This document shows positions 7,185 through 27,879 of a stretch of 27,879 nucleotides of DNA, one piece after another. The notes beneath the pieces are model-generated. The model worked only from the letters and a program-made list of their open reading frames with translations. It was not told where the DNA came from and made no database searches. Numbering within the stretch: position 1 is the stretch's first letter; each line of letters opens with the position of its first letter. The translations under genes and the position numbers were made by a program. Source of the DNA: a virus. Location of the stretch: positions 1-27,879 of IMG/VR virus record IMGVR_UViG_3300044631_001963, one strand, 5' to 3'.

Positions 7185-7841
7185 ATGTTTGATTTTACTG
7201 GTTGGGAAAAAACAAATGAGTCAGCGTATGTATACAGGGGATTTTTATCCAACGAACTGTGCGATTTGGCTTTTGAGCAATCTAGAATTGCACAAGAAGA
7301 AGGCGATATAAACGAAAATCCTCAAAATAAAGGAATCCTGTTACTAGGAGTCCCCATGCTCCAGCAAGTTGTAGATAAAGTTAAAGAAATTTTTAATGAA
7401 GATGAATATGATGTAAATACTTTTTTACACTGGTACTCAGTCCCAGGCAAACCATTTGGAATACATAGCGATGACCAGGCATACGATCCTCACCCAAACA
7501 AAAAAACTTACGGTGGAGTCATATACTTAGCAGAAATGGATGGCGGAAGACTCTACTATCCAGAAACAAATACATGGATGCAGCCACACAAAGGTGACCT
7601 TGTAGTTCAATCTTCTGCTGTATTACACGGCGCAGAATCTGCAGCAGGAGACAATAAAAGAACAGTTACATTTGTAGTGTATGATAAAACTAAGCCAGGA
7701 ACGAATTGGGATCAAGAAGAATACCTAAAATGGAGAAATGATATTATTAAAGGATCCAAGGACTGGCTGTCTTCAGAAACTGGAAAACGCTGGGCAGAAG
7801 AATGGCCTTTTTGGGCAAGAGACATATTAGGAGACAAATGA
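7185..7841 (+). CDS. 2-oxoglutarate/Fe(II) oxygenase, 218 aa
   Basis: This is a member of the 2OG-Fe(II) oxygenase (prolyl 4-hydroxylase-like) superfamily. Predicted iron ligands are H94 and D96 (GIHSDD) and H148 (LHGAES), with R159 as the likely 2-oxoglutarate-binding residue (NKRTVTF). GGRLYYP near 120-126 is the usual strand before the distal His. Such enzymes hydroxylate amino-acid side chains or small molecules. The substrate here is unknown. GGAGG sets the start. Its stop overlaps the next start (ATGA), so the two oxygenase genes form an operon. Confidence 0.8.
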   Translation: MFDFTGWEKTNESAYVYRGFLSNELCDLAFEQSRIAQEEGDINENPQNKGILLLGVPMLQQVVDKVKEIFNEDEYDVNTFLHWYSVPGKPFGIHSDDQAYDPHPNKKTYGGVIYLAEMDGGRLYYPETNTWMQPHKGDLVVQSSAVLHGAESAAGDNKRTVTFVVYDKTKPGTNWDQEEYLKWRNDIIKGSKDWLSSETGKRWAEEWPFWARDILGDK

Positions 7842-8749
7842 AACACGAACTGTTAGCAAAAGATGTAATCCTTTTTAAAAATACTTTAAAGGATCCAAAG
7901 GCAACGCAAGATTTTATTATTAGATCTAAAACTAATAATGATCAATGGTTTGGAGATTGGCAAGATTGGAGACCATGGGGTCAATATTCAAAAGCATATC
8001 CATATGAAGATACGTCATATGAAGTATGTAAAAATGAAGGCGGAGCCTACCTTAGAGAATTTTTAGATATTTTCTGGGATGCTATTAAGATATATAAAGA
8101 GAACTATTTAAACGAAGATTATTTTAAACTAATAAATGAAGATCCAAATATTCCAACATCAATGCAAGAAGCTAGAGAGCATGCTTCATACTGCTCTGCA
8201 GATGTAGTTATTTTAGAATCAGAAAATACGGATCCAAAATTACCATTATCAATGGAATATCATCAAGATCGCAGACCTTGGTTTGGAGGAACTCCTCACA
8301 TCTTCAATTTCAACATCTATACAAACGATGACTACGAAGGTGGAGATATACTTCTTATAAATACTGAAGATGCAGATTTATCGACATATATAGATGCGGC
8401 AGGAGTAGAGCAGGAATGTCATATGATTGATCCACCAATTAGATATAAGATGGAAGCAGGAGATGGACTTCTATTTAGAACAGATTTATATCATGCAGTA
8501 ATGCCAGTTGTCGGTAATAAATTTTATGTTCGTCAATTTTTAACAGGATTATTTAAGAAAGAGTATGAAGACAAAAAAGCATCAATGTCAGAAGAAGAAT
8601 TTAATGAATTTTTAAAACAAGAAGAAAAAGAGGGATTTGCAAAGTTCGGCTGGCAGTGCAGAGTATATGATTCTTTGGATCAAGCTAAAATGAGTCATAA
8701 CAAAGATGGCGCAATGATATGTGTGGTTAAAGATAAAGCAGTTGACTAG
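7838..8749 (+). CDS. 2-oxoglutarate/Fe(II) oxygenase-like protein, 303 aa
   Basis: A larger, divergent relative. The HxD pair is H142/D144 (EYHQDRR), the distal His is H219 (LYHAVMP) and R232 (YVRQF) is the probable 2-oxoglutarate ligand. GGDILLIN near 168-175 precedes a long insert. A Glu/Lys-rich segment (about 250-275) and a C-terminal extension are specific to this protein. The start at 7838 overlaps the previous stop and has AGGAG upstream. An in-frame start at 7802 lies inside the preceding gene and lacks a ribosome site. Substrate unknown. Confidence 0.7.
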   Translation: MKHELLAKDVILFKNTLKDPKATQDFIIRSKTNNDQWFGDWQDWRPWGQYSKAYPYEDTSYEVCKNEGGAYLREFLDIFWDAIKIYKENYLNEDYFKLINEDPNIPTSMQEAREHASYCSADVVILESENTDPKLPLSMEYHQDRRPWFGGTPHIFNFNIYTNDDYEGGDILLINTEDADLSTYIDAAGVEQECHMIDPPIRYKMEAGDGLLFRTDLYHAVMPVVGNKFYVRQFLTGLFKKEYEDKKASMSEEEFNEFLKQEEKEGFAKFGWQCRVYDSLDQAKMSHNKDGAMICVVKDKAVD

Positions 8750-8978: not shown

Positions 8979-9131
8979 ATGAAAAAAGTATGGGCATCAA
9001 TAGCAATAATTGCGACAGCAATTCTTTCTGGAGCTTTGCTATCTAGATTCTTAAATTGGGCGGGAAACGTAGAAATCTTTGATTTCGACCTAGATGAAGA
9101 TATAGATCAAGAATCTAATCCCTTTGCATAG
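8979..9131 (+). CDS. Small membrane protein, 50 aa, acidic tail
   Basis: AAGGAG precedes the ATG at 8979. Residues 4-24 form an Ile/Ala-rich membrane helix, and the tail has a run of Asp/Glu (DFDLDEDIDQE). The gene lies directly after the tRNA and overlaps the 3' end of the convergent sulfotransferase-like gene by 25 bases. Function is unknown. Confidence 0.65.
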   Translation: MKKVWASIAIIATAILSGALLSRFLNWAGNVEIFDFDLDEDIDQESNPFA

Positions 9132-9784
9132 TTATATACATACTCATCAATATCAGATATAGATCTAATTGCTTCAACTTCTTCAGCGGTCAAAGACTCA
9201 TATAAAAGTCTAGAGCTATTGTTCACATTGATCTTATGGTTCACCTTATCCTTTTCAAGGTAACTTGGAACAGGAAGATCCATATCCTGTAATATACTTC
9301 GCATTGTGTCATTTGGGTTAGTTGATTCTAATATGAATTTATTGACTCTCTTACTTCGCCGCACTGCACTATTAATATTAATTTCAGTTGACTGCAATAT
9401 ATCCTTACCATATACATCTGAATGACTAACTAGATACCTAGACATATTGTTAGCATATGTATTTACATTCTGCATAAATGCTTCTTTATCTGGAAGATCA
9501 TTACTATAATATTTTGTTTCTGATTTGTTGGATGATTTAAATTGATCACAATACTTGCTGACTATTTGTTTTACTGGATCTCTAAATGTTGATGCTACAT
9601 ATGTATCTTTATCTATTTCTGGATGCCACCCCGTTATTAAAGGATTGCTATATTGGTCCCACATATTAAGAAATTCAATGCCATGTTTATTAAACTCATC
9701 TTTTAATGGTGAGTACATGTTGCTTATGAAGTATTTAGATCCTGTTTTAGGTATCTGTAAATAATAAAAGGACTTGTAAGCCAT
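9107..9784 (-). CDS. Sulfotransferase-like protein, 225 aa
   Basis: IPKTGS (residues 11-16) matches the 5'-phosphosulfate loop of PAPS-dependent sulfotransferases, and TFRDP (66-70) matches the 3'-phosphate-binding Arg-x-Pro region. This fits the sulfotransferase family 2 type that modifies carbohydrates. Predicted activity is transfer of sulfate from PAPS to a glycan or protein Tyr. I chose the ATG at 9784 because GAGGG lies 7 bases before it. An upstream in-frame ATG at 9829 would add 15 residues without a clear ribosome site. It is convergent with 8979-9131. Whether it modifies virion or host surface is unknown. Confidence 0.65.
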   Translation of the reverse strand: MAYKSFYYLQIPKTGSKYFISNMYSPLKDEFNKHGIEFLNMWDQYSNPLITGWHPEIDKDTYVASTFRDPVKQIVSKYCDQFKSSNKSETKYYSNDLPDKEAFMQNVNTYANNMSRYLVSHSDVYGKDILQSTEININSAVRRSKRVNKFILESTNPNDTMRSILQDMDLPVPSYLEKDKVNHKINVNNSSRLLYESLTAEEVEAIRSISDIDEYVYNYAKGLDS

Positions 9785-9850
9785 TCTAAGACCCTCTTTT
9801 ATTGATTTGCATACTTCGGGGTAGACCATATGTTCTAAAATTGCTATATG

Positions 9851-9928: not shown

Positions 9929-10753
9929 TTATTTCTTATATTTAAGTTTGTTTACTATCTTATGAGTATTGTCGCAATAAGGAAAGTCAGCAGAGTCCCC
10001 GCATACACATTTCTTTTTGCAGAAAGTTGTTTCAGGATAAACAGTGTTGTTCCAGTTTATGATTTCTTTTGGATCTGTCATAAATGGATGTTTATCTGGA
10101 TCAAATAGCTCATATGTTCCTGGAGCGTGTTCCTTTTCCATGCAGAAGTTAGAGTATGCAAATCTAATCCCACTTGTTATTTTCCTTACTCCATGTTCCC
10201 ATGGATGAGTTGCTCCATGTATTGCTACATCTCCAGGTCTTACGTCTACCTGCAAGCAATCATCAGGATCTCCTGGTCTATCTTTAATTCTTCCATCTGC
10301 TTCAATATTTGGATAAAATATTTCTCCGCCTTCGTAGTCTCCCATATAGGCAACTACTCCATGGCTTAATCTGCAGCAAGTTGACCATCTGTCTAGTTGA
10401 GTTAGGTCATGCTCCATGTTCATTCCTGGACTATCGGCATGCACAAACATTCCTTCATCGCCAGGACGCATTACATTTACAAATAGCTGTGGATGAATAT
10501 AGTGTTCTGGATAAAGCATCATTGAAAGCCTGTCCCAGATTGGTTTTAGCTCAGGCATTGATGGGCCAGTCTTGTCCTTGTACCAGTCTATATACTGATC
10601 TCTAAATACAAATGCATCTTTTGAATCTTTGTAGGCAGCCTCATGCTCTCTCATTAAACGCATGATATTTTCATTTTCTTCTGGTGTTATAAAGCCTCTG
10701 TAAATCCAGACCTGCTCTGCAACTTGCTCCACCTTTGGATTATCTGTAAACAT
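9929..10753 (-). CDS. 2OG/Fe(II) oxygenase fused to CDGSH-type Fe-S motif, 274 aa
   Basis: Residues 1-205 are a prolyl 4-hydroxylase-like oxygenase: H105-x-D107 (FVHADS), distal H187 (PWEHGV) and R197 ten residues later as the 2-oxoglutarate ligand. YMGDYEGGEIFYP (136-148) is the usual preceding strand. The C-terminus carries C249-x-C251-x2-S254-x3-P258-x-C260-D-N-T-H264, which fits the CDGSH iron-sulfur consensus with Asn in place of Gly. The four predicted 2Fe-2S ligands (three Cys, one His) are all present. The ATG overlaps the stop of the upstream gene (TAATG). The fusion suggests a built-in electron source or redox sensor for the oxygenase. Confidence 0.75.
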   Translation of the reverse strand: MFTDNPKVEQVAEQVWIYRGFITPEENENIMRLMREHEAAYKDSKDAFVFRDQYIDWYKDKTGPSMPELKPIWDRLSMMLYPEHYIHPQLFVNVMRPGDEGMFVHADSPGMNMEHDLTQLDRWSTCCRLSHGVVAYMGDYEGGEIFYPNIEADGRIKDRPGDPDDCLQVDVRPGDVAIHGATHPWEHGVRKITSGIRFAYSNFCMEKEHAPGTYELFDPDKHPFMTDPKEIINWNNTVYPETTFCKKKCVCGDSADFPYCDNTHKIVNKLKYKK

Positions 10754-12492: not shown

Positions 12493-14427
12493 ATGTCACA
12501 AACTATTGAAAATCCTTATGAAAACTTTATTGCTTTATCTAGATATGCAAAATGGGTAGAAGCAGAAGGTCGTAGAGAAACATGGGGAGAGACAGTAGAC
12601 AGATATTTTTCATTTATGACTAACCATTTAAAGACAAACCATAATTATATTCCAAATGAAAAGCTAGTTGCGGAATTAAAAGAGTTTGTATTTCAACGAA
12701 ATGTTATGCCGTCCATGAGATCTGTAATGACTTCTGGAGCTGCACTTGAAAGAGATAATGTTGCTGGGTACAATTGTGCTTTTCTGCCAGTTGACTCACC
12801 ACGATCATTTGATGAAACAATGTATGTTCTGATGTGTGGAACAGGCGTAGGGTTTTCGGTAGAATATAAGTATATTAATAAGCTACCGCCAGTACCAGAA
12901 AAACTAGAAAAGTCAGATACTGTAATTGTTGTAGAAGATTCTAAACAGGGCTGGGCAAAAGCATATCGTGAACTGCTTGCATTGCTTTGGACTGGACATA
13001 TTCCAGCAATTGATGTTTCAAAAGTTAGACCTGCAGGCGCAAGACTTAAGACAATGGGTGGAAGGTCTTCAGGACCACAACCACTTGTAAATCTATTTGA
13101 TTTTACAATTGCAAAGTTTAAAAATGCCACAGGAAGAAGCCTTAAGCCAATCGAGTGTCATGACATTATGTGCAAGATTGGTGAAGTTGTTGTAGTAGGT
13201 GGAGTTCGCAGATCAGCAATGATTTCTCTTTCAAACATTAACGATATTGAAATGGCTCAAGCAAAATCTGGAAATTGGTGGGAGCAAAGCCCACAACGTG
13301 CACTATCAAATAACTCTGTTGCATATTCTCGCAAGCCAGAGATGGAACAATTTATAGCAGAATGGAAATCTTTATATGACTCTAAGTCGGGAGAACGAGG
13401 TATATATAATGTGGCCGCAGCTCAGGCCCAAGCAGCAAAGTTTGGAAGAAGAGATCCAGATATACACTACGGAACTAACCCATGCTCAGAAATTATCTTA
13501 CGTCCTTACCAGTTTTGTAACCTTTCAGAAGTCGTATTACGTGAAAACGATACAAAGAAAGATATTCAACGCAAAGTTGAGCTTGCAACAATTCTTGGGA
13601 CTTGGCAATCAACACTAACAGACTTTAAGTATCTTCGCAAGATCTGGAAAGACAATACAGAAGAAGAGCGACTGCTTGGAGTTTCTTTGACTGGGCAATT
13701 TGGACATAAGTTTATGTCTGGCAAAGAAGACCTAATTTCACTTGAGGCATTTCTTATGACTTTGCGTGAAAAAGCAAGAGAAGTAAATAAAGAAGAGTCT
13801 TCCAAAATAGGTATTCCAGAATCGGCAGCTATTACATGCGTAAAGCCTTCTGGAACAGTTTCTCAATTAGTTGGAGTTTCTTCTGGAATGCATCCATGGC
13901 ATTCTCCATATTACATTCGTACGGTTCGTGGATCAAAGGGAGATCCAATTTCAACTTTCTTAAAGGAAGTCGGAATCCCAGTAGAAGACGACGTAATGAA
14001 GCCAAACGATACATACGTATTTTCATTTCCAGTAAAAGCACCAGAAGGAGCAATTGTAAGAAATGATCTTACAGCAATTGACCATTTAAACATTTGGTTA
14101 GTGTACCAACGTGCTTGGTGTGAACATAAGCCATCAATTACTGTTTCCGTAAAAGAAGATGAGTGGATGGAGGTAGGGGCCTGGGTTTATAAGAATTTTG
14201 ATGAAGTTTCTGGAATTTCTTTCCTCCCCCATTCAGAGCATACATACAAGCAAGCGCCATACCAGGAAGTTTCTAAAGAAGAGTATGATGCTCTTGTTGA
14301 AAAAATGCCAAAAAATATTCGTTGGGAAGATTTGTCTTTCTATGAAACAGAAGATGGAACATCACCCTCTGCCACCCTTGCCTGTAGCTCTGACGGCAAC
14401 TGCGAACTTGTAGATATTTCAGCATAG
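12493..14427 (+). CDS. nrdJ: Class II (B12-dependent) ribonucleotide reductase, 644 aa
   Basis: This protein reduces ribonucleotides to deoxyribonucleotides using adenosylcobalamin. It looks like the monomeric RTPR type known from Lactobacillus leichmannii. NPCSE holds C331 (thiyl radical site) and E333. C95 (GYNC) and C342 (QFC) fit the redox pair, and the C331-C342 spacing of 11 equals that of C408-C419 in the reference enzyme. The C-terminal C631-x5-C637 would be the re-reduction pair. It is somewhat shorter than the roughly 740-residue reference. It supplies DNA precursors during infection and depends on host or environmental cobalamin. It lies between the endolysin operon and the holin. 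Confidence 0.9.
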   Translation: MSQTIENPYENFIALSRYAKWVEAEGRRETWGETVDRYFSFMTNHLKTNHNYIPNEKLVAELKEFVFQRNVMPSMRSVMTSGAALERDNVAGYNCAFLPVDSPRSFDETMYVLMCGTGVGFSVEYKYINKLPPVPEKLEKSDTVIVVEDSKQGWAKAYRELLALLWTGHIPAIDVSKVRPAGARLKTMGGRSSGPQPLVNLFDFTIAKFKNATGRSLKPIECHDIMCKIGEVVVVGGVRRSAMISLSNINDIEMAQAKSGNWWEQSPQRALSNNSVAYSRKPEMEQFIAEWKSLYDSKSGERGIYNVAAAQAQAAKFGRRDPDIHYGTNPCSEIILRPYQFCNLSEVVLRENDTKKDIQRKVELATILGTWQSTLTDFKYLRKIWKDNTEEERLLGVSLTGQFGHKFMSGKEDLISLEAFLMTLREKAREVNKEESSKIGIPESAAITCVKPSGTVSQLVGVSSGMHPWHSPYYIRTVRGSKGDPISTFLKEVGIPVEDDVMKPNDTYVFSFPVKAPEGAIVRNDLTAIDHLNIWLVYQRAWCEHKPSITVSVKEDEWMEVGAWVYKNFDEVSGISFLPHSEHTYKQAPYQEVSKEEYDALVEKMPKNIRWEDLSFYETEDGTSPSATLACSSDGNCELVDISA

Positions 14428-17031: not shown

Positions 17032-19161
17032 ATGGCATTAAGAATACAACTAAGAAGAGATACAGCAGCAAATTGGGTAACAAATAACCCTATATTGCTT
17101 TCTGGAGAATTAGGCTTCGAAACAGACACACTAAAATTTAAAGTTGGTAACGGCTCTAGATGGAATGCAACAGCCTCATATGCATTGAAATTAGGAGAAG
17201 CAAACGGAGTAGCAACACTTAACTCTATTGGTAAAATTCCAACATCTCAGCTTCCAGACTCTATTTCTGCATCCGTAGATTTAAATGGAGCAATTGCTGC
17301 ATTGACAACAAATTCAATTGCAGAAGGATCAACCAATAAATATTTTACAAATCAAAGAGCAATTGACGCCGCTGCTTCTGCAATATCAGCAGCTCTTGCA
17401 ACAGAAATAATAAATAGAAATAGCGCAATTACAGCTCAGGCAGCCACTACTACAACTGCAATTGCAACAGCAAAATCTCAAGCGATTACAGCAGCAGCAG
17501 ATGATGCTTCTGCAAAAGTTATTGCTGCTAAATCTGATCTAACTACAATAATTCAATCAAATACGACAGCAGTAAATTCTTACACAGATGCAAAAATTGC
17601 AACAGAGGTAACAAATAGAAACACAGCAATTTCAACAGCAGTGTCTGGAATTACATCTGGATCTGGAACAGTTGGACCAGCAGGACCACAAGGTTTACCT
17701 GGACTAGATGGCGCAGCAGGCGCAACAGGAGCTCAAGGACCAAAAGGCGACACAGGAGATCAAGGACCAAAAGGCGACACAGGATTAACTGGACTGACAG
17801 GACCAGCAGGTACAAATGGCACTAACGGAACTAACGGATCATCAGCAACCATAGTAGTTGGCTCAGTAACAACTGGAAATCCTGGAACTTCTGTATCTGT
17901 AACAAACTCTGGAACCTCCTCAGCAGCAATATTAAATTTTACAATTCCAAAAGGTGATGTAGGCGCAGCAGGCTCAGGAACTTCAACTTTTTCAGGAACA
18001 ACCGACGCAGTAGCAGAAGGAACAAGTAATCTTTATTTTACAGACGCAAGAGCACTTTCAGCAACAAATCAAAGATTTACAGATGTCTATGTTAACATAA
18101 ATCAAGCAACCGATGACTTGATGGCGTATGGCGCTTCTAACTATTTAACATCTTCAAGCTTGGGAAACACCCTAGACGGATATGTAATGGAAGCAGATGC
18201 AGATTTAGCAGGAGGATATGCAAAACTTGGGGCATCAAGCGGTAAAATTCTAGACTCTGTAATTCCTTCTACAATTGCAAGAACATCAGATATAACATCA
18301 GCAATAGCAAATGTTGTAAATGCAGCACCAGCTTCATTTGATACACTTAAGGAAATTTCAGACTATATTGCCTCAGACCAAACAGCAGGAACAGCATTAA
18401 CAACATTAGTAGGGACTAAGCTTTCTTCAACAGATGCAGCATCCACATATGCTCCAATTGCTTCCCCTACATTCACTGGTACAGTGGGTGGCATAACAAA
18501 GACAATGGTTGGCTTAGGAAATGTTGACAATACAACAGATCTATTAAAGCCTATATCTACTGCAACCCAAACAGCATTAGACACTAAATTGGCTACATCA
18601 ACCGCATCAACAACATATGCGCCAAAAGCATCACCAACATTTACTGGTACAGTAGATTTTTCTGGTGCAACAGTAACTGGCATCTCAGCACTACCAACAC
18701 AATTAAATAATGAAGGAAAATATTTAACAACTAATGGAACGTCATCATCATGGGCAACTCTTAATTTAGCAGCCTATGCTCCAATTAACAACCCATCATT
18801 TACTGGAACAGTAGACTTTACCAATGCAGCGCTTTCTGGCATTGTTGGTGGAATTACAACAGACATGATTGCAAATGGAACGATTACAAATTTTGATATA
18901 AACGCAGCAGCAGCAATTGATCAAACAAAAATTGCTGGAACAGCGGTAGTAAGAACAGACACAGCTACAGTAACAAATGAAATGCTTGCTGGCTCAATAA
19001 CCAACAGCAAGCTAGTAAATTCATCTATTACTGTAAATGGAACTACAGTAGCTCTTGGTGGTACCGCAACAATAGCTGCGGGTGCAAAAACATTCTATAA
19101 TAACACTGGCACATTACCTACTACTGGAATGGTTGCTGGAGATATTTATATACAGTACTAG
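17032..19161 (+). CDS. Long tail fibre with collagen-like segment, 709 aa
   Basis: The first 50 residues (RIQLRRDTAANW...FKVGNGSRWN) form the same N-terminal module as 23769-25571 and resemble the N-terminus of the major tropism determinant. An Ala/Thr-rich coiled coil follows (about 90-205). Next are Gly-x-y triplets (about 212-268, nt 17665-17838) with PKGDTG units, then SPTFTGTV-type repeats. The C-terminus is a small beta domain. Start 17032 is preferred over an upstream in-frame TTG because AGGGGG lies about 9 bases before it. The collagen-like part is a possible prolyl hydroxylase substrate. Confidence 0.85.
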   Translation: MALRIQLRRDTAANWVTNNPILLSGELGFETDTLKFKVGNGSRWNATASYALKLGEANGVATLNSIGKIPTSQLPDSISASVDLNGAIAALTTNSIAEGSTNKYFTNQRAIDAAASAISAALATEIINRNSAITAQAATTTTAIATAKSQAITAAADDASAKVIAAKSDLTTIIQSNTTAVNSYTDAKIATEVTNRNTAISTAVSGITSGSGTVGPAGPQGLPGLDGAAGATGAQGPKGDTGDQGPKGDTGLTGLTGPAGTNGTNGTNGSSATIVVGSVTTGNPGTSVSVTNSGTSSAAILNFTIPKGDVGAAGSGTSTFSGTTDAVAEGTSNLYFTDARALSATNQRFTDVYVNINQATDDLMAYGASNYLTSSSLGNTLDGYVMEADADLAGGYAKLGASSGKILDSVIPSTIARTSDITSAIANVVNAAPASFDTLKEISDYIASDQTAGTALTTLVGTKLSSTDAASTYAPIASPTFTGTVGGITKTMVGLGNVDNTTDLLKPISTATQTALDTKLATSTASTTYAPKASPTFTGTVDFSGATVTGISALPTQLNNEGKYLTTNGTSSSWATLNLAAYAPINNPSFTGTVDFTNAALSGIVGGITTDMIANGTITNFDINAAAAIDQTKIAGTAVVRTDTATVTNEMLAGSITNSKLVNSSITVNGTTVALGGTATIAAGAKTFYNNTGTLPTTGMVAGDIYIQY

Positions 19162-23768: not shown

Positions 23769-25571
23769 ATGTCAACAGTAAGAATTCAAGTAAGAAGAGG
23801 CGTCGCAGCAGACTGGACCTCAGTTAACCCAATACTAGCAGCAGGAGAAATGGGTTACGAATCAGATACAAACAAGTTTAAATTTGGTAACGGTACAGGA
23901 ACATGGAGCACACTTTCATATGGTGCATCAGATACACCTGGCGTTACAGAAATTGCACAAGATGCAATAAATTCAGCTCTTTCAGTTGGAACAGGTCTTA
24001 CAAAGACATACAATGATGGCGCTAACACAATTACAGTAGCTATCAATGATGCAGTTTGGGCAACTAGGGCATATGTAGATTCAGCCAATACAGGCCTAGT
24101 AAGCACAGCGGACTTAACATACATTCCATTTGAAGACAGAGGGGTTGCAAACGGAGTTGCTTCACTAGATGCAAATACCACAGTACCATCAGCTCAAATA
24201 AGCGATTCTTCAGTAAGAAGCAAAATTAGTGCTTCTGGAGATGGTATTTCATACAACTCATCAACTGGAGCGCTATCACTTGATTTTTCAAACGCAGCAA
24301 CATCTGTTGCAAGCCAAGGATATGTAGCAACACAAATTGCAAATACTGTAAACGGTGCACCAGGAGCACTAGACACTCTTCTAGAGCTTTCAAATGCATT
24401 AGGAGCAGATGCAAATTTTGCAACAACAGTAACAAATAACCTTGCAACAAAATCACCAATTAATTCACCAACATTTACTGGAATAGTAACAATCCCAACG
24501 GGAGCAGTTATTTCAGGATACGACCTTCAAGCAGATAGAGAGTCTGCAGTAACAGCAGCAGTTTCAACAGCAGCAACAGACGCAACATCAAAGGCTAACG
24601 CCGCTCAAGCAGCAGCAATTTCTGCAGCAGCAGCAACTGCATCAGCAGATGCGACAGAAAAAGCCAACGCAGCCCAGTCTGCAGCAGCAACAGACGCTAC
24701 TACAAAGGCAAACGCCGCTCAAGCATCAGCAATTTCTGCAGCAGCAACAGACGCTACTACAAAGGCATCCGCCGCTCAAGCAGCAGCAATTTCTGCAGCA
24801 GCATCAGACGCTACAGGCAAGGCTGACGGAGCAGTTGCAACTGCATCAGCAGATGCGACAGCAAAAGCCAACGCAGCACAAGCCGCAGCAATTGCAGCAG
24901 CAGCAACTGCAGCAGGATCTGCTCTTTCATCACATGAATCAGATACAACAAACGTTCACGGAATTTCGGACACATCACTTCTAGCACTTAAGTCAGAGGT
25001 TGCAGCAGTAACAGCAGCTACACTAGGTCTTGGAAACGTAAACAACACAGCAGATTCAGCAAAGCCAGTATCTACAGCACAGGCTACAGCAATCGCAACT
25101 GCTAAGTCAGAAGCAATTGCAGATGCAACAGCACAGGTAAATGCAGTTATCGCAGCAGCACCAGCAGCAATGAACACACTTGATGAACTTGCAGCAGCAC
25201 TTGGCGATGACGCTAACTATGCAGCAACAATAACAACTGCGCTTGCAGGCAAAGTTCCTTCAGCTACACCAATTTCACAGAAGACAGCAAGCTACACTCT
25301 TTCATCAGTAAATGAAAAAGACTCAATGATCGAAATGAATGCAGCAGGTGCAACGACAGTCACAATCCCAACAGATTCGGCAGTTGCGTTCCCAATCGGT
25401 ACATCACTAGATGTTCTTAGAGTGGGAGCAGGCGCAGTAGACATTGCAGCAGCAGGCGGAGTTACAGTAAATGCAACTCCAGGATTAAAGCTTCGTGCAC
25501 AGTGGTCATCAGCAACATTAATAAAGAGAGCAGCAAATACTTGGGTACTTGTTGGCGATCTGTCAGCTTAA
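23769..25571 (+). CDS. Long Ala-rich tail fibre, 600 aa
   Basis: The N-terminus (RIQVRRGVAADW...FKFGNGTGTW) matches the module of 17032-19161. A beta part (about 55-245, with SPTFTGIV) is followed by a long Ala-rich coiled coil (about 265-390) of repeated DATTKANAAQAAAISAAA-type units and LDELAAAL loops. A C-terminal beta domain (about 495-600) ends the protein. Near-identical DNA repeats of about 57 bases lie at 24577-24830. It is probably a major trimeric side fibre. Confidence 0.8.
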   Translation: MSTVRIQVRRGVAADWTSVNPILAAGEMGYESDTNKFKFGNGTGTWSTLSYGASDTPGVTEIAQDAINSALSVGTGLTKTYNDGANTITVAINDAVWATRAYVDSANTGLVSTADLTYIPFEDRGVANGVASLDANTTVPSAQISDSSVRSKISASGDGISYNSSTGALSLDFSNAATSVASQGYVATQIANTVNGAPGALDTLLELSNALGADANFATTVTNNLATKSPINSPTFTGIVTIPTGAVISGYDLQADRESAVTAAVSTAATDATSKANAAQAAAISAAAATASADATEKANAAQSAAATDATTKANAAQASAISAAATDATTKASAAQAAAISAAASDATGKADGAVATASADATAKANAAQAAAIAAAATAAGSALSSHESDTTNVHGISDTSLLALKSEVAAVTAATLGLGNVNNTADSAKPVSTAQATAIATAKSEAIADATAQVNAVIAAAPAAMNTLDELAAALGDDANYAATITTALAGKVPSATPISQKTASYTLSSVNEKDSMIEMNAAGATTVTIPTDSAVAFPIGTSLDVLRVGAGAVDIAAAGGVTVNATPGLKLRAQWSSATLIKRAANTWVLVGDLSA

Positions 25572-25599: not shown

Positions 25600-26925
25600 A
25601 TGGCAAATAAGAAAATCGGTATTAAGTCTTCAGCACAGGATAACTTCCTAGAGCCAAAGGCCGTTACTGGATTTACTGCCACTGGTGTTAACGGAGGGGC
25701 GTTCAATAGCGGTTCAGCGAATTTAGCTTGGACGCTTCCATCCGATTCACCAGCAGCAACACTATATACAATAGTGTCAAGTCCAGCAACAACAACACAA
25801 ACATCAACTTCTACCACAAAGGCTTTTACAGGCCTCGCTGGTGGAACATCATACACATTTACAATAACTCCATCTAATGCAGTTGGCAACGGTCCGACCA
25901 CTACTTCAGGTGCTACAACACCTACTACTGTCCCAGCTCAAGTTGGTGTTGTTTCAGCATCATCTTCAACAGCAGGAACAGACGTAGTGTCATGGTCAGC
26001 ACCAGCAAATGGTGGATCAGCAATTACGGCATATTACTGGGCATCATCAGACGGAAAGTCTGGCAGTACAGCATCAACATCCGTATCAGTTGCTCAAGAA
26101 CAAGGAACTGCACAGACATACACTGTTTATGCAGCCAATGCTAACGGAAATGGTGCTGCATCAGGTGCCTCTGCTTCAGTTACAACCTTCTTCTCACCAC
26201 CTTCATTCTTTTCCCCTCCAGGGTTCTTTTCCCCTCCAGGGTTCTTCGCACCTCCAGGGTTCTTTTCACCTCCAGGGTTCTTCGCACCTCCAGGGTTCTT
26301 TTCACCTCCAGGGTTCTTCGCACCTCCAGGGTTCTTTGCACCTCCAGGGTTCTTTTCACCTCCAGGGTTCTTTTCCCCTCCAGGGTTCTTTTCACCTCCA
26401 GGGTTCTTTTCCCCTCCAGGATTTGGCGGATGCATAGAAGAAAACACACTTATTAAAACAACAACAGGAATGAAGGCTATTAAAGATCTAGCAGTTGGAG
26501 ATACAATTGTCTCAGTAGATTTAGCTGGAATCCCATTAGTTGGCTCACAAGAAGAGTCAGAGTTTGATCTAGCACTATGGAATTCAGACAACCTAGTCTC
26601 TTCAGGAAATGTTGAAGCTACAGTAACTTCAAAGATTGGTAAAATTGTACCGCAGGTAATGTATTTTAATGGCAATGAGTCAAAGAAGGTATCTCTAGTA
26701 CAGCATGTATTTATTAAAAGAGATGGCATGTACCAGGTTCAAGTTTCAGCAGACGTAGTTGAGGGAGATTACCTTGTTCATGTAAATGAAGACGGATCCC
26801 TTACAGACGAGCTAATCGAATCAATCACACTGGTTGATGGAGTAGCAACAGTATATAGATTAAATACAGAGCCACAAGACTGGTTCGTTGCAGATGGAAT
26901 TCTGCTACATAATTTAAAGATCTAA
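25600..26925 (+). CDS. FN3 - PPG-repeat - Hint domain protein, 441 aa
   Basis: Two fibronectin-III-like domains (about 17-110 and 111-196) are followed by thirteen FF(S/A)PP(G/S) hexads (197-274), then FGG and a Hint domain (278-438). The Hint part begins with C278 (CIEENTLIKTTTG), has DLAVGDTIVS (296-305), a block-B-like H369 and a terminal H437-N438. Only LKI follows. The residue after Asn is Leu, so protein splicing is unlikely, but N-S acyl shift and cleavage at G277/C278 are possible. That would leave a C-terminal Gly-Gly or a thioester. There is no endonuclease insert. AGGAG precedes the ATG. The next genes encode prolyl-hydroxylase-like enzymes. Confidence 0.85.
   Translation: MANKKIGIKSSAQDNFLEPKAVTGFTATGVNGGAFNSGSANLAWTLPSDSPAATLYTIVSSPATTTQTSTSTTKAFTGLAGGTSYTFTITPSNAVGNGPTTTSGATTPTTVPAQVGVVSASSSTAGTDVVSWSAPANGGSAITAYYWASSDGKSGSTASTSVSVAQEQGTAQTYTVYAANANGNGAASGASASVTTFFSPPSFFSPPGFFSPPGFFAPPGFFSPPGFFAPPGFFSPPGFFAPPGFFAPPGFFSPPGFFSPPGFFSPPGFFSPPGFGGCIEENTLIKTTTGMKAIKDLAVGDTIVSVDLAGIPLVGSQEESEFDLALWNSDNLVSSGNVEATVTSKIGKIVPQVMYFNGNESKKVSLVQHVFIKRDGMYQVQVSADVVEGDYLVHVNEDGSLTDELIESITLVDGVATVYRLNTEPQDWFVADGILLHNLKI
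26188..26421 (+). repeat. Thirteen 18-base tandem repeats (FF-S/A-PPG)
   Basis: Thirteen in-frame 18-mers encode FFSPPS once, then FFSPPG or FFAPPG. Variation is limited to the Ser/Ala codon and synonymous changes, so recent expansion and strong selection on the peptide are both likely. Twelve of the units contain Pro-Pro-Gly. Confidence 0.95.
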
Positions 26926-26952
26926 TATACAAAAGCTGTTTATTTTTAATAA

Positions 26953-26981
26953 TTGACATTTATATACTTAAATGTCATAAT
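26953..26981 (+). promoter_or_regulatory. Promoter of a leaderless oxygenase gene
   Basis: TTGACA at 26953-26958, a 17-base spacer and TGT-CATAAT at 26976-26981. The ATG at 26988 is seven bases after the -10, so translation is predicted to be leaderless. Confidence 0.7.
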
Positions 26982-26987
26982 AAATAA

Positions 26988-27695
26988 ATGATAGGCTTAA
27001 TGGCAGAAATGCAAAATGATTTATCGGAGACATGGTCTTCAAAAGAACAGCTTTTCCCTGGACTTTGGGTTTACAGAGATGTAATTAAAAAAGATTTAAA
27101 TCTTTCCCAAAGACTAGAGGAAGAGCTTTCTTTGTCTAAAGGATACAGGTGGCAACGAGCTACGGTTGGCGGAAGTAAGAAATCTATAGACTATAGAGAC
27201 TGCTTTGATTTTAAAATTGAAAAGACAAGCTTTCCCGAAAAAGACAAGCATCAAGTTGTATTTGAAAAAATATGGCAAGACTCGTATGACGCACAAAACC
27301 CAGCTCTTCAAGACTATTGCAATATGTATAGCATACAAATGAATTTCTGGGAAAAAATGAACTTTGTTAAATATGGTCCAGGTAATTACTTTAAAGAGCA
27401 TGCAGATCATGGGTTTTCTTACGTCTCAACAGTCTCATTAGTTGGCTATATAAACGATGACTATGTTGGCGGAGAAATTGTTTTTCCAAAACTTGGTTTA
27501 CAAATTAAACCTAAAGCTGGAGACCTTTATATATTTCCTTCAACATATTTGTTTTCACATGCAGCCATGCCAGTTTCTGATGGCATAAAGTACTCTGTGG
27601 TAACAATGACAGATTATAATGATAATTCTCACGGAGATGAGTTTGACAGCTTTGTTAGACTAAAAAATAAAAGCAAATTGAATATGGGAGGGTAG
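26988..27695 (+). CDS. Prolyl-4-hydroxylase-type 2OG/Fe(II) oxygenase, 235 aa
   Basis: The iron ligands are H138-x-D140 (FKEHADHG) and H191 (FSHAAMP). The predicted 2-oxoglutarate ligand is K201, ten residues after H191. Collagen prolyl 4-hydroxylase has the same H-x-D...H-x9-K spacing with Lys, whereas the other oxygenases in this window use Arg. GYINDDYVGGEIVFP (153-167) is the usual strand. The gene lies 62 bases after the PPG-repeat protein gene and has its own promoter. Peptidyl-prolyl hydroxylation is the leading prediction. An in-frame ATG at codon 5 is an alternative start. Confidence 0.8.
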   Translation: MIGLMAEMQNDLSETWSSKEQLFPGLWVYRDVIKKDLNLSQRLEEELSLSKGYRWQRATVGGSKKSIDYRDCFDFKIEKTSFPEKDKHQVVFEKIWQDSYDAQNPALQDYCNMYSIQMNFWEKMNFVKYGPGNYFKEHADHGFSYVSTVSLVGYINDDYVGGEIVFPKLGLQIKPKAGDLYIFPSTYLFSHAAMPVSDGIKYSVVTMTDYNDNSHGDEFDSFVRLKNKSKLNMGG

Positions 27696-27696
27696 T

Positions 27697-27879
27697 ATGA
27701 ATCAGCCAGAGATGTTAGCACCAGGAGTTCTTGTATATAGAAATGTATTTCCAAAAGAAATGGATTTGATTAACAGGCTTGAAGAATGTTTATCCAGAGA
27801 CCCAGATGCCGAAGGTGTCGGATACTCAGACTCACCACATGCAACTTATAAATGGAAACAGGCCACAACTGGTTATGCT
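27697..27879 (+). CDS. Second P4H-like oxygenase, N-terminal part (runs off the window)
   Basis: The ATG at 27697 follows GGGAGG, one base after the previous stop. The 61 visible residues resemble the start of 26988-27695 (APGVLVYRNVFPKEMDLINRLEE versus FPGLWVYRDVIKKDLNLSQRLEE, then YKWKQATTG versus YRWQRATVG). It is therefore a tandem paralogue. The catalytic residues lie beyond the window and cannot be checked. Confidence 0.7.
   Translation, partial: MNQPEMLAPGVLVYRNVFPKEMDLINRLEECLSRDPDAEGVGYSDSPHATYKWKQATTGYA

Follow-up and report, generated by a model that had tools for sequence, protein, structure and literature searches.

Described prolyl hydroxylases and the locus

2-Oxoglutarate (2OG) oxygenases are common in aquatic phages, where they are usually filed as metabolic genes. 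We analysed a stretch of viral DNA (the window: IMG/VR virus record IMGVR_UViG_3300044631_001963, positions 1 to 27,879; 27,879 bases) in which the gene for a tail-fibre-type protein, P0001, is followed by genes for two oxygenases resembling prolyl 4-hydroxylases (P4Hs), P0002 (here OG1) and P0003 (OG2). The original prediction, made from the letters of the window, was that the phage uses such enzymes to hydroxylate Pro-Pro-Gly (PPG) repeats of its own fibre in the manner of collagen P4H. The observation behind it is confirmed, and the interpretation is partly supported in a sharpened form: what the oxygenase clade of OG1 tracks is Pro-Pro flanked by Phe pairs, rather than Pro before Gly or collagen.

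By profile, the nearest solved relatives of OG1 are the small prokaryotic P4H of Bacillus (PDB: 5hv0, 3itq; the best match, E-value 3e-7) and vCPH of chlorovirus PBCV-1 (PDB: 5c5t; E-value 5e-4). The latter is likewise a virus-encoded small P4H (fold match Z 17.8, root-mean-square deviation [rmsd] 2.4 over 159 residues, 20% identity), but it comes from a virus of a eukaryotic alga, and it acts on Pro-rich repeats such as PAPK rather than on aromatic Pro-Pro tracts. Another small prokaryotic P4H, PPHD of Pseudomonas putida (PDB: 4iw3), matches the predicted fold with Z 19.6 (rmsd 2.9 over 187 residues, 19% identity); unlike OG1, this protein and the Bacillus P4H are cellular enzymes that are not fibre-linked, and according to the titles of 4iw3 and 5v7y, the partner is elongation factor Tu. 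The top structural match is an algal P4H with (Ser-Pro)5 (PDB: 3gze; Z 20.6, rmsd 2.2 over 173 residues, 18% identity, matches within 1 Z counting as tied), a cell-wall protein enzyme that binds a low-complexity Pro peptide. Collagen-type P4H alpha subunits carry a peptide-substrate-binding domain next to the catalytic domain, whereas OG1 is a lone catalytic domain of 235 amino acids with no such neighbouring domain and belongs to a clade that was found beside none of 62 viral (PPG)n collagen genes.

The 2OG oxygenases of cyanophages and pelagiphages (phrog_61) belong to the same superfamily: OG1 matches phrog_61 at 1.6e-25, with hits in 260 INPHARED records, mostly of Synechococcus phages, although all 260 are below 60% identity and none covers 80% of the query. 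The INPHARED matches of OG1 and two clade relatives are likewise all below 60% identity and mostly from cyanophages. Passages of the literature on these phages report 24 2OG genes in cyanophage S-SCSM1 and state that no specific study of such functions in viruses has been made (PMC9602691), place some pelagiphage 2OG genes beside ferrochelatases (PMC9599517) and, in excerpts of a Baltic Sea study, list P4H among abundant viral genes, mention collagen in viral tail fibres and call the use of P4H "cryptic" (PMC9301287); an excerpt of PMC9611531 annotates a P4H transcript. In the open-access passages retrieved, we found no report of prolyl hydroxylation of phage fibres or of a link between a phage oxygenase and a fibre tract, and those on the cyanophage and pelagiphage enzymes describe no fibre-tract linkage. 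The fibre, its tract and the adjoining oxygenases of the window are as follows.

25600 to 26925, plus strand: P0001, tail-fibre-type protein of 441 amino acids with an fn3 part, a Phe-Phe/Pro-Pro tract and a Hint-like C terminus (open reading frame [ORF] and Pfam)
26188 to 26421, plus strand: the tract and proposed substrate, 13 hexads FF[S/A]PP[G/S] from amino acids 197–274, 12 of them ending in PPG
26425 to 26922, plus strand: Hint-like domain, from Cys276 to the C-terminal LLHNLKI (Cys276 and HN by sequence; Pfam matches below cut-off)
26953 to 26981, plus strand: promoter-like element TTGACA-17-CATAAT inside a TGACATTTA/TAAATGTCA palindrome, ending 6 bases before the OG1 ATG (11/12 consensus matches)
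26988 to 27695, plus strand: OG1 (P0002), P4H-like 2OG/Fe(II) oxygenase of 235 amino acids (PF13640, catalytic residues, predicted structure)
27697 to 27879, plus strand: OG2 (P0003), a second oxygenase of the OG1 clade, of which the window has the first 61 codons before the contig ends (full copy at L004:8710-9408)

The 12 PPG units of P0001 lie at amino acids 206–272 with a period of six residues, and the first unit, FFSPPS, brings the Pro-Pro hexads to 13; at the DNA level, the tract is an 18-bp unit in 11.9 copies with 91% matches (Tandem Repeats Finder). It is not collagen-like, having no G-X-Y triplets and a six-residue FFxPPG period, and it contains neither Lys nor Arg. The fn3 domain scores 32.5 bits (cut-off 25), and the C-terminal matches to Intein_splicing (18.2 bits, cut-off 35.8) and Hint_2 (16.2 bits, cut-off 28.4) are weak and below cut-off, with Cys276 and LLHN present. 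The fn3 domain and neighbouring fibre-type genes, in which Pfam finds Mtd_N (17032–19161 and 23769–25571), suggest that P0001 is a structural protein; BLAST with the low-complexity filter on gave no INPHARED match. Among P0001 relatives, the N-terminal part is constant and the tract varies (FF[SAG]PPG, FFPPFFPFF, FSPFGFSPFG, FTPY and FGAFGA). Representative peptides of the tract types compared here are FFSPPGFFAPPG and FFPPFFPP (Pro-Pro), FSPFGFSPFG and, for collagen, GPPGPPGPP.

OG1 starts 62 bp after the P0001 ORF and matches PF13640 with 44.4 bits (cut-off 27). The HxD...H metal triad and 2OG Lys that had been noted in it (H138, D140, H191 and K201) are all present, and when OG1 is aligned with members of its clade, they are invariant in the ungapped rows (95/95, 95/95, 93/93 and 93/93, respectively). 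The AlphaFold model (predicted local distance difference test [pLDDT] 91.0) has a double-stranded beta-helix fold for which all 50 listed structural matches are 2OG-type oxygenases by title. Prolyl hydroxylases head both structural lists obtained with the model, in line with the P4H type first proposed, and PHD2 matches with Z 19.5 (rmsd 3.6 over 201 residues). By its sequence, OG1 is a 2OG/Fe(II) oxygenase of the PF13640 superfamily that resembles the small P4Hs, with catalysis predicted; its architecture is not that of a collagen P4H.

The 61-codon OG2 fragment alone has no Pfam match. However, a contig that is identical over P0001 and OG1 (L004) continues rightward, and in it the identical 61 residues extend to a protein of 232 amino acids (PF13640, 49.3 bits), which is the complete OG2. 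The gene order in L004 is OG1, OG2, a DUF6065 protein, a 242-amino-acid relative, OG3–OG6, a protein with an S74 chaperone end and a LamG protein. On the basis of this continuation, the P0001/oxygenase pair is the left edge of a six-oxygenase block between fibre-type genes; the two tandem oxygenases first described are the start of a multi-oxygenase block rather than a pair. Longer relatives have six oxygenases and two DUF6065-type genes. The promoter-like element recurs in four relatives (L128, L194, L200 and L222), against a background of eight promoter-like sites in the region versus 5.6 in shuffles, and sits as if OG1 were expressed from a leaderless, regulated transcript. Because OG1 has its own promoter-like element, kept in these relatives, the adjacency of fibre and oxygenase need not be mere co-transcription.

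Linkage of one oxygenase clade to Pro-Pro tracts

Several OG1 relatives adjoin fibres without PPG, and loci were therefore sampled by tract alone: viral contigs were scanned with DNA patterns of the tract peptides, with no oxygenase in the query. At least 120 stretches each were obtained for FFxPPG, FFPPFFPPFF (hereafter FFPP) and collagen PPGPPGPPG, the samples of these three being incomplete, together with 117 for FSPFG, 24 for FTPY and 93 for FGA. The numbers of loci, tract ORFs, deduplicated ORFs and ORFs with at least 3 kb downstream were 119, 116, 71 and 52 for FFxPPG; 118, 117, 102 and 70 for FFPP; 120, 103, 99 and 62 for collagen; 117, 122, 74 and 47 for FSPFG; 24, 25, 17 and 10 for FTPY; and 93, 84, 58 and 40 for FGA. 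L024 and L137 were left out of the FFxPPG and FFPP sets. We chose the deduplication, the distance limits and the point at which the tree was cut to define the clade, and trees were built with FastTree. The tandem FFxPPG pattern occurred in only 2 stretches of 84,980 prokaryote genomes, with no 2OG ORF near either.

OG1 and OG2 fall into one clade of 94 tips (support 0.908) in a tree of 475 oxygenases; 33 tips are FFxPPG-linked, 44 are FFPP-linked and none is FSPFG-linked. A member of this clade follows 47/52 FFxPPG genes and 47/70 FFPP genes at a distance of up to 2.6 kb, together 94 of the 122 deduplicated Pro-Pro tract genes, compared with none of the collagen (PPG)n (0/62), FSPFG (0/47), FTPY (0/10) or FGA (0/40) genes. 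In 20 tract-bearing records (1,625 kb in all), the clade profile had 24 matches scoring 254 bits or more, a density at which approximately 2 of the 52 FFxPPG genes would have a match within 2.6 kb by chance. The adjacency of a PPG-repeat fibre and a P4H-type oxygenase that first drew attention in the window is thus not accidental.

The linkage runs downstream and hardly ever upstream. Counting 2OG ORFs of any kind within 1.6 kb of deduplicated genes for which 2 kb or more was available, we found them downstream and upstream of 53/58 and 0/48 FFxPPG genes, 56/77 and 1/48 FFPP genes, 2/65 and 2/68 collagen genes, and 11/54 and 0/41 FSPFG genes, respectively; another upstream count, of any 2OG gene, gave 0/36 (FFxPPG), 2/40 (FFPP), 2/55 (collagen) and 0/35 (FSPFG). 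The loci around P0001 and OG1 supplied the 2OG profile, which may miss distant 2OG genes; this is partly compensated by PF13640 checks of whole records. At the level of whole records, the best match to the clade profile reached at least 280 bits in 20/20 FFxPPG records, whereas one of 20 FSPFG records reached 241 bits and the rest had matches of 144 bits or less, or none. The record sets were not random (20/119 FFxPPG, 20/117 FSPFG and 20/120 collagen loci): the FFxPPG records were of mixed sizes, some without an enzyme in the fetched stretch, and five gave rows to profile A2, and the FSPFG and collagen records were picked mainly for long contigs.

Gly follows Pro-Pro in 492/835 hexads of FFxPPG-type proteins, and FFPPFFPP tracts, in which Pro-Pro is followed by Phe, have the clade too; Pro before Gly is thus not the feature in common. 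Nor does collagen P4H serve as the model, as first proposed, since any 2OG gene lies downstream of only 2/62 viral (PPG)n collagen genes and PF13640 genes occur in 4/20 of their records; collagen is ruled out as a substrate class on linkage. A second target had been suggested in a neighbouring fibre:

17665 to 17841, plus strand: collagen-like G-X-Y segment of the 17032–19161 fibre, P0007 (PF01391, 36 bits)

This is unlikely, because the segment has a single Y-position Pro (GLP) and collagen genes show no linkage. Co-occurrence of the two gene types in homologous loci, which had been proposed as a check, fails for PPG as such and holds for Pro-Pro within the fibre family of P0001.

That family is defined by the P0001-type N terminus. 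Within it, a clade member is nearby in 36/36 FFxPPG and 38/47 FFPP genes, but in none of the FSPFG (0/36), FTPY (0/7) or FGA (0/26) genes, giving 74/83 for Pro-Pro tracts and 0/69 for the other tracts. The two kinds of tract interchange on a tree of 143 P0001-type N termini. Six independent tract switches lie on well-supported branches, and across these, the enzyme changes together with the tract in a mean of 5.9 and against it in none (median p 0.031, range 0.031–0.0625; a first version of the tree with 112 rows gave five pairs and p 0.0625).

Other determinants were considered. The Hint domain is ruled out, because the clade is kept in 9/9 family members that end 40 or fewer amino acids past the tract and so have no room for it. 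The N terminus of the fibre family is ruled out by the members with FSPFG, FTPY and FGA tracts, and a general 2OG richness of the genome is insufficient, with PF13640 genes in 19/20 FSPFG records. The tract alone, whatever the protein, is upheld only in part: in unrelated proteins with intact starts, the clade is nearby in 7/12 FFxPPG and 3/16 FFPP cases. The rule that joins tract to clade is therefore firm inside the fibre family and partial outside it. The positive FFxPPG proteins outside the family include proteins of 122–150 amino acids, most with a convergent oxygenase adjoining. They also include an ORF of 60 amino acids at L603:3342-3524 (also L165 and L148), almost all FFxPP hexads, which stands beside a convergent oxygenase and a clade member.

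FSPFG fibres have a different companion, F215, with proteins of 200–225 amino acids (e.g., L485:4379-5026 and L492:6774-7418). F215 proteins are downstream of 33/47 FSPFG, 7/52 FFxPPG, 1/70 FFPP, 0/62 collagen, 0/10 FTPY and 7/40 FGA genes. Three members scanned gave no Pfam family over cut-off. The F215 model (pLDDT 89.8) is predicted to have a 2OG-like fold (3bvc, Z 16.5; P4H 4j25, Z 13.4).

Candidate modification of the fibre tract

We favour, with moderate confidence, a fibre-modification module in which the clade enzyme most likely hydroxylates the phage's own fibre tract. The tail-fibre protein bears a low-complexity tract of Phe pairs alternating with Pro-Pro, here 13 units of FF[S/A]PP[G/S], and the next gene encodes a small prolyl-hydroxylase-like 2OG/Fe(II) oxygenase of the clade that accompanies this tract type. 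During infection, OG1, in the simplest case together with OG2, would use host 2OG, O2 and Fe(II) to hydroxylate tract prolines before virion assembly; OG2, the further oxygenases and the DUF6065-type proteins may contribute or complete modifications of this fibre or of its neighbours. Hydroxyproline could alter the conformation of the tract and place polar groups on a very hydrophobic element, which probably contacts the host. The linkage, with its downstream direction, its clade specificity and its dependence on Pro-Pro tracts within one fibre family, is observed; we infer that the fibre is the substrate and Pro the residue, and which Pro is modified, what the other genes do and how the phage benefits are conjectured in the same way. 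The intact catalytic residues and the prolyl-hydroxylase-like fold of the model support this scheme.

Several observations weigh against it. It is built on linkage and predicted structure, and the six-oxygenase block includes other oxygenases of no assigned role. There are just six independent tract switches, so that shared descent explains many of the raw counts, and Fisher values calculated for the linkage take no account of relatedness. Five of the 52 FFxPPG genes have no clade member within 2.6 kb (L134, L148, L196, L198 and L237). The gene of L237 encodes a fibre of 889 amino acids; in loci such as L089–L091, a similar large fibre is followed approximately 5 kb downstream by another tract gene, and this one has the oxygenase block. 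In L144, L148 and L198, the clade is not near the tract in the fetched stretch but is present in their records. Nine FFPP fibres of the family also have no clade member nearby, six of them with another 2OG gene there and three with none. Outside the family the linkage is weaker, as given above; of the records with the 13 negative FFPP proteins (fragments of 9–88 kb), 3/13 contain a match elsewhere that scores 298 bits or more, and the other 10 contain none at that level. Conversely, the 241-bit relative in an FSPFG record belongs to G018, where no tract was seen in the surrounding 10-kb stretch.

The same module might carry out another chemistry on the tract: the residue modified could be Phe, Ser or Gly, or the reaction could be desaturation or cross-linking, prolyl hydroxylation being just the best-known activity of the fold. 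2OG oxygenases perform many reactions, six oxygenases for one tract leave room for several, and the association of FSPFG tracts, which lack Pro-Pro, with the 2OG-like F215 indicates that oxygenases are not tied to Pro-Pro generally. Against this, the clade follows Pro-Pro and not Phe, being absent beside the Phe-rich FSPFG and FGA tracts, and the structures closest to the OG1 fold are those of prolyl hydroxylases that act on peptides, such as 3gze with (Ser-Pro)5. We consider a different reaction unlikely, if worth keeping in view.

Alternatively, the oxygenases could act on host molecules or small metabolites as auxiliary metabolic genes, with the fibre linkage reflecting a cassette shared among related phages. 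Phage 2OG genes are usually read in this way, and passages of PMC9602691 cite predicted effects on host nitrogen metabolism. It would fit the 2–14 PF13640 genes per record in 11 related records, not all beside fibres, and the weak FFPP linkage outside the fibre family. It is harder to reconcile with the six independent switches of the fibre family, in which tract type predicts the enzyme clade, or with the FSPFG phages, which carry 2OG genes in 19/20 records yet have the clade beside 0/47 fibres. We regard such hitch-hiking as unlikely. A collagen-type P4H acting on Pro before Gly, in the PPG units and the collagen-like fibre P0007, could appeal to the 12 PPG of P0001, the P4H-like residues and the collagen-like segment, but is very hard to sustain given the FFPPFFPP tracts, which have the same clade and no Gly after Pro-Pro, its absence beside the 62 viral (PPG)n collagen genes and the single-domain architecture of OG1.

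A broader extension of the fibre-modification module is a tract-enzyme code, in which the low-complexity aromatic tracts at the fibre ends are exchangeable and their chemistry decides the accompanying oxygenases, giving a combinatorial, post-translationally modified receptor-binding surface. Pro-Pro tracts would be paired with the P4H-like clade and companion paralogues, and FSPFG tracts with F215. We put this forward tentatively, as a possibility that falls short of probable; the weak linkage outside the fibre family slightly lowers our confidence in both the module and the code. If true, the code is a kind of system that we have not found described for tailed phages.

For one clade, the linkage points to the phage's own fibre tract as a candidate substrate, with FSPFG, FTPY, FGA and collagen as matched negative controls. 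With a strong and specific genetic linkage inside one fibre family, the role of a common class of phage enzymes becomes open to direct testing. If the module operates as proposed, prolyl hydroxylation would be a further means by which phages vary the surface that binds the host, and fibre maturation may be tied to the oxygen, iron and 2OG of the infected cell.

Other genes of the oxygenase block and the window

The DUF6065 protein and its 242-amino-acid relative lie within the oxygenase block (L004:9395-10817). The relative belongs to phrog_7084, with 48 of its 50 INPHARED matches from haloarchaeal viruses, and by eye it has an HxH and further conserved motifs. Members of this set, for which iterated profiles merged the two families (470 shared of 473 and 473), are downstream of 45/52 FFxPPG, 45/70 FFPP, 22/47 FSPFG and 0/62 collagen genes. 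No paper on DUF6065 was found in the open-access library searched. Some FFxPPG loci, such as L158:3800-5072, have further genes between fibre and oxygenases: a sulfotransferase and a protein like Asp/Asn beta-hydroxylase each follow 5/52 FFxPPG genes, and a GNAT-like protein follows 7/52; all three are possible further modifiers.

Three more 2OG-like ORFs lie elsewhere in the window.

7185 to 7841, plus strand: P0004, further 2OG-like ORF (PhyH, 24.0 bits, cut-off 22)
7802 to 8749, plus strand: P0005, further 2OG-like ORF (no Pfam match; matches the 2OG profile built here)
9929 to 10753, minus strand: P0006, further 2OG-like ORF with a CDGSH-like end (CDGSH, 26.0 bits, below the cut-off of 29.5)

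P0006 would be an unusual fusion of a 2OG-like protein with a C-terminal CDGSH iron-sulfur-type motif, the latter just below its cut-off. The start of the ORF at 9107–9829 (minus strand) resembles phage sulfotransferase-type proteins (IPKTGS...) by eye only, with no Pfam match. The ribonucleotide reductase encoded at 12493–14427 is 66% identical to that of Streptomyces phages, which hints at an actinobacterial host.

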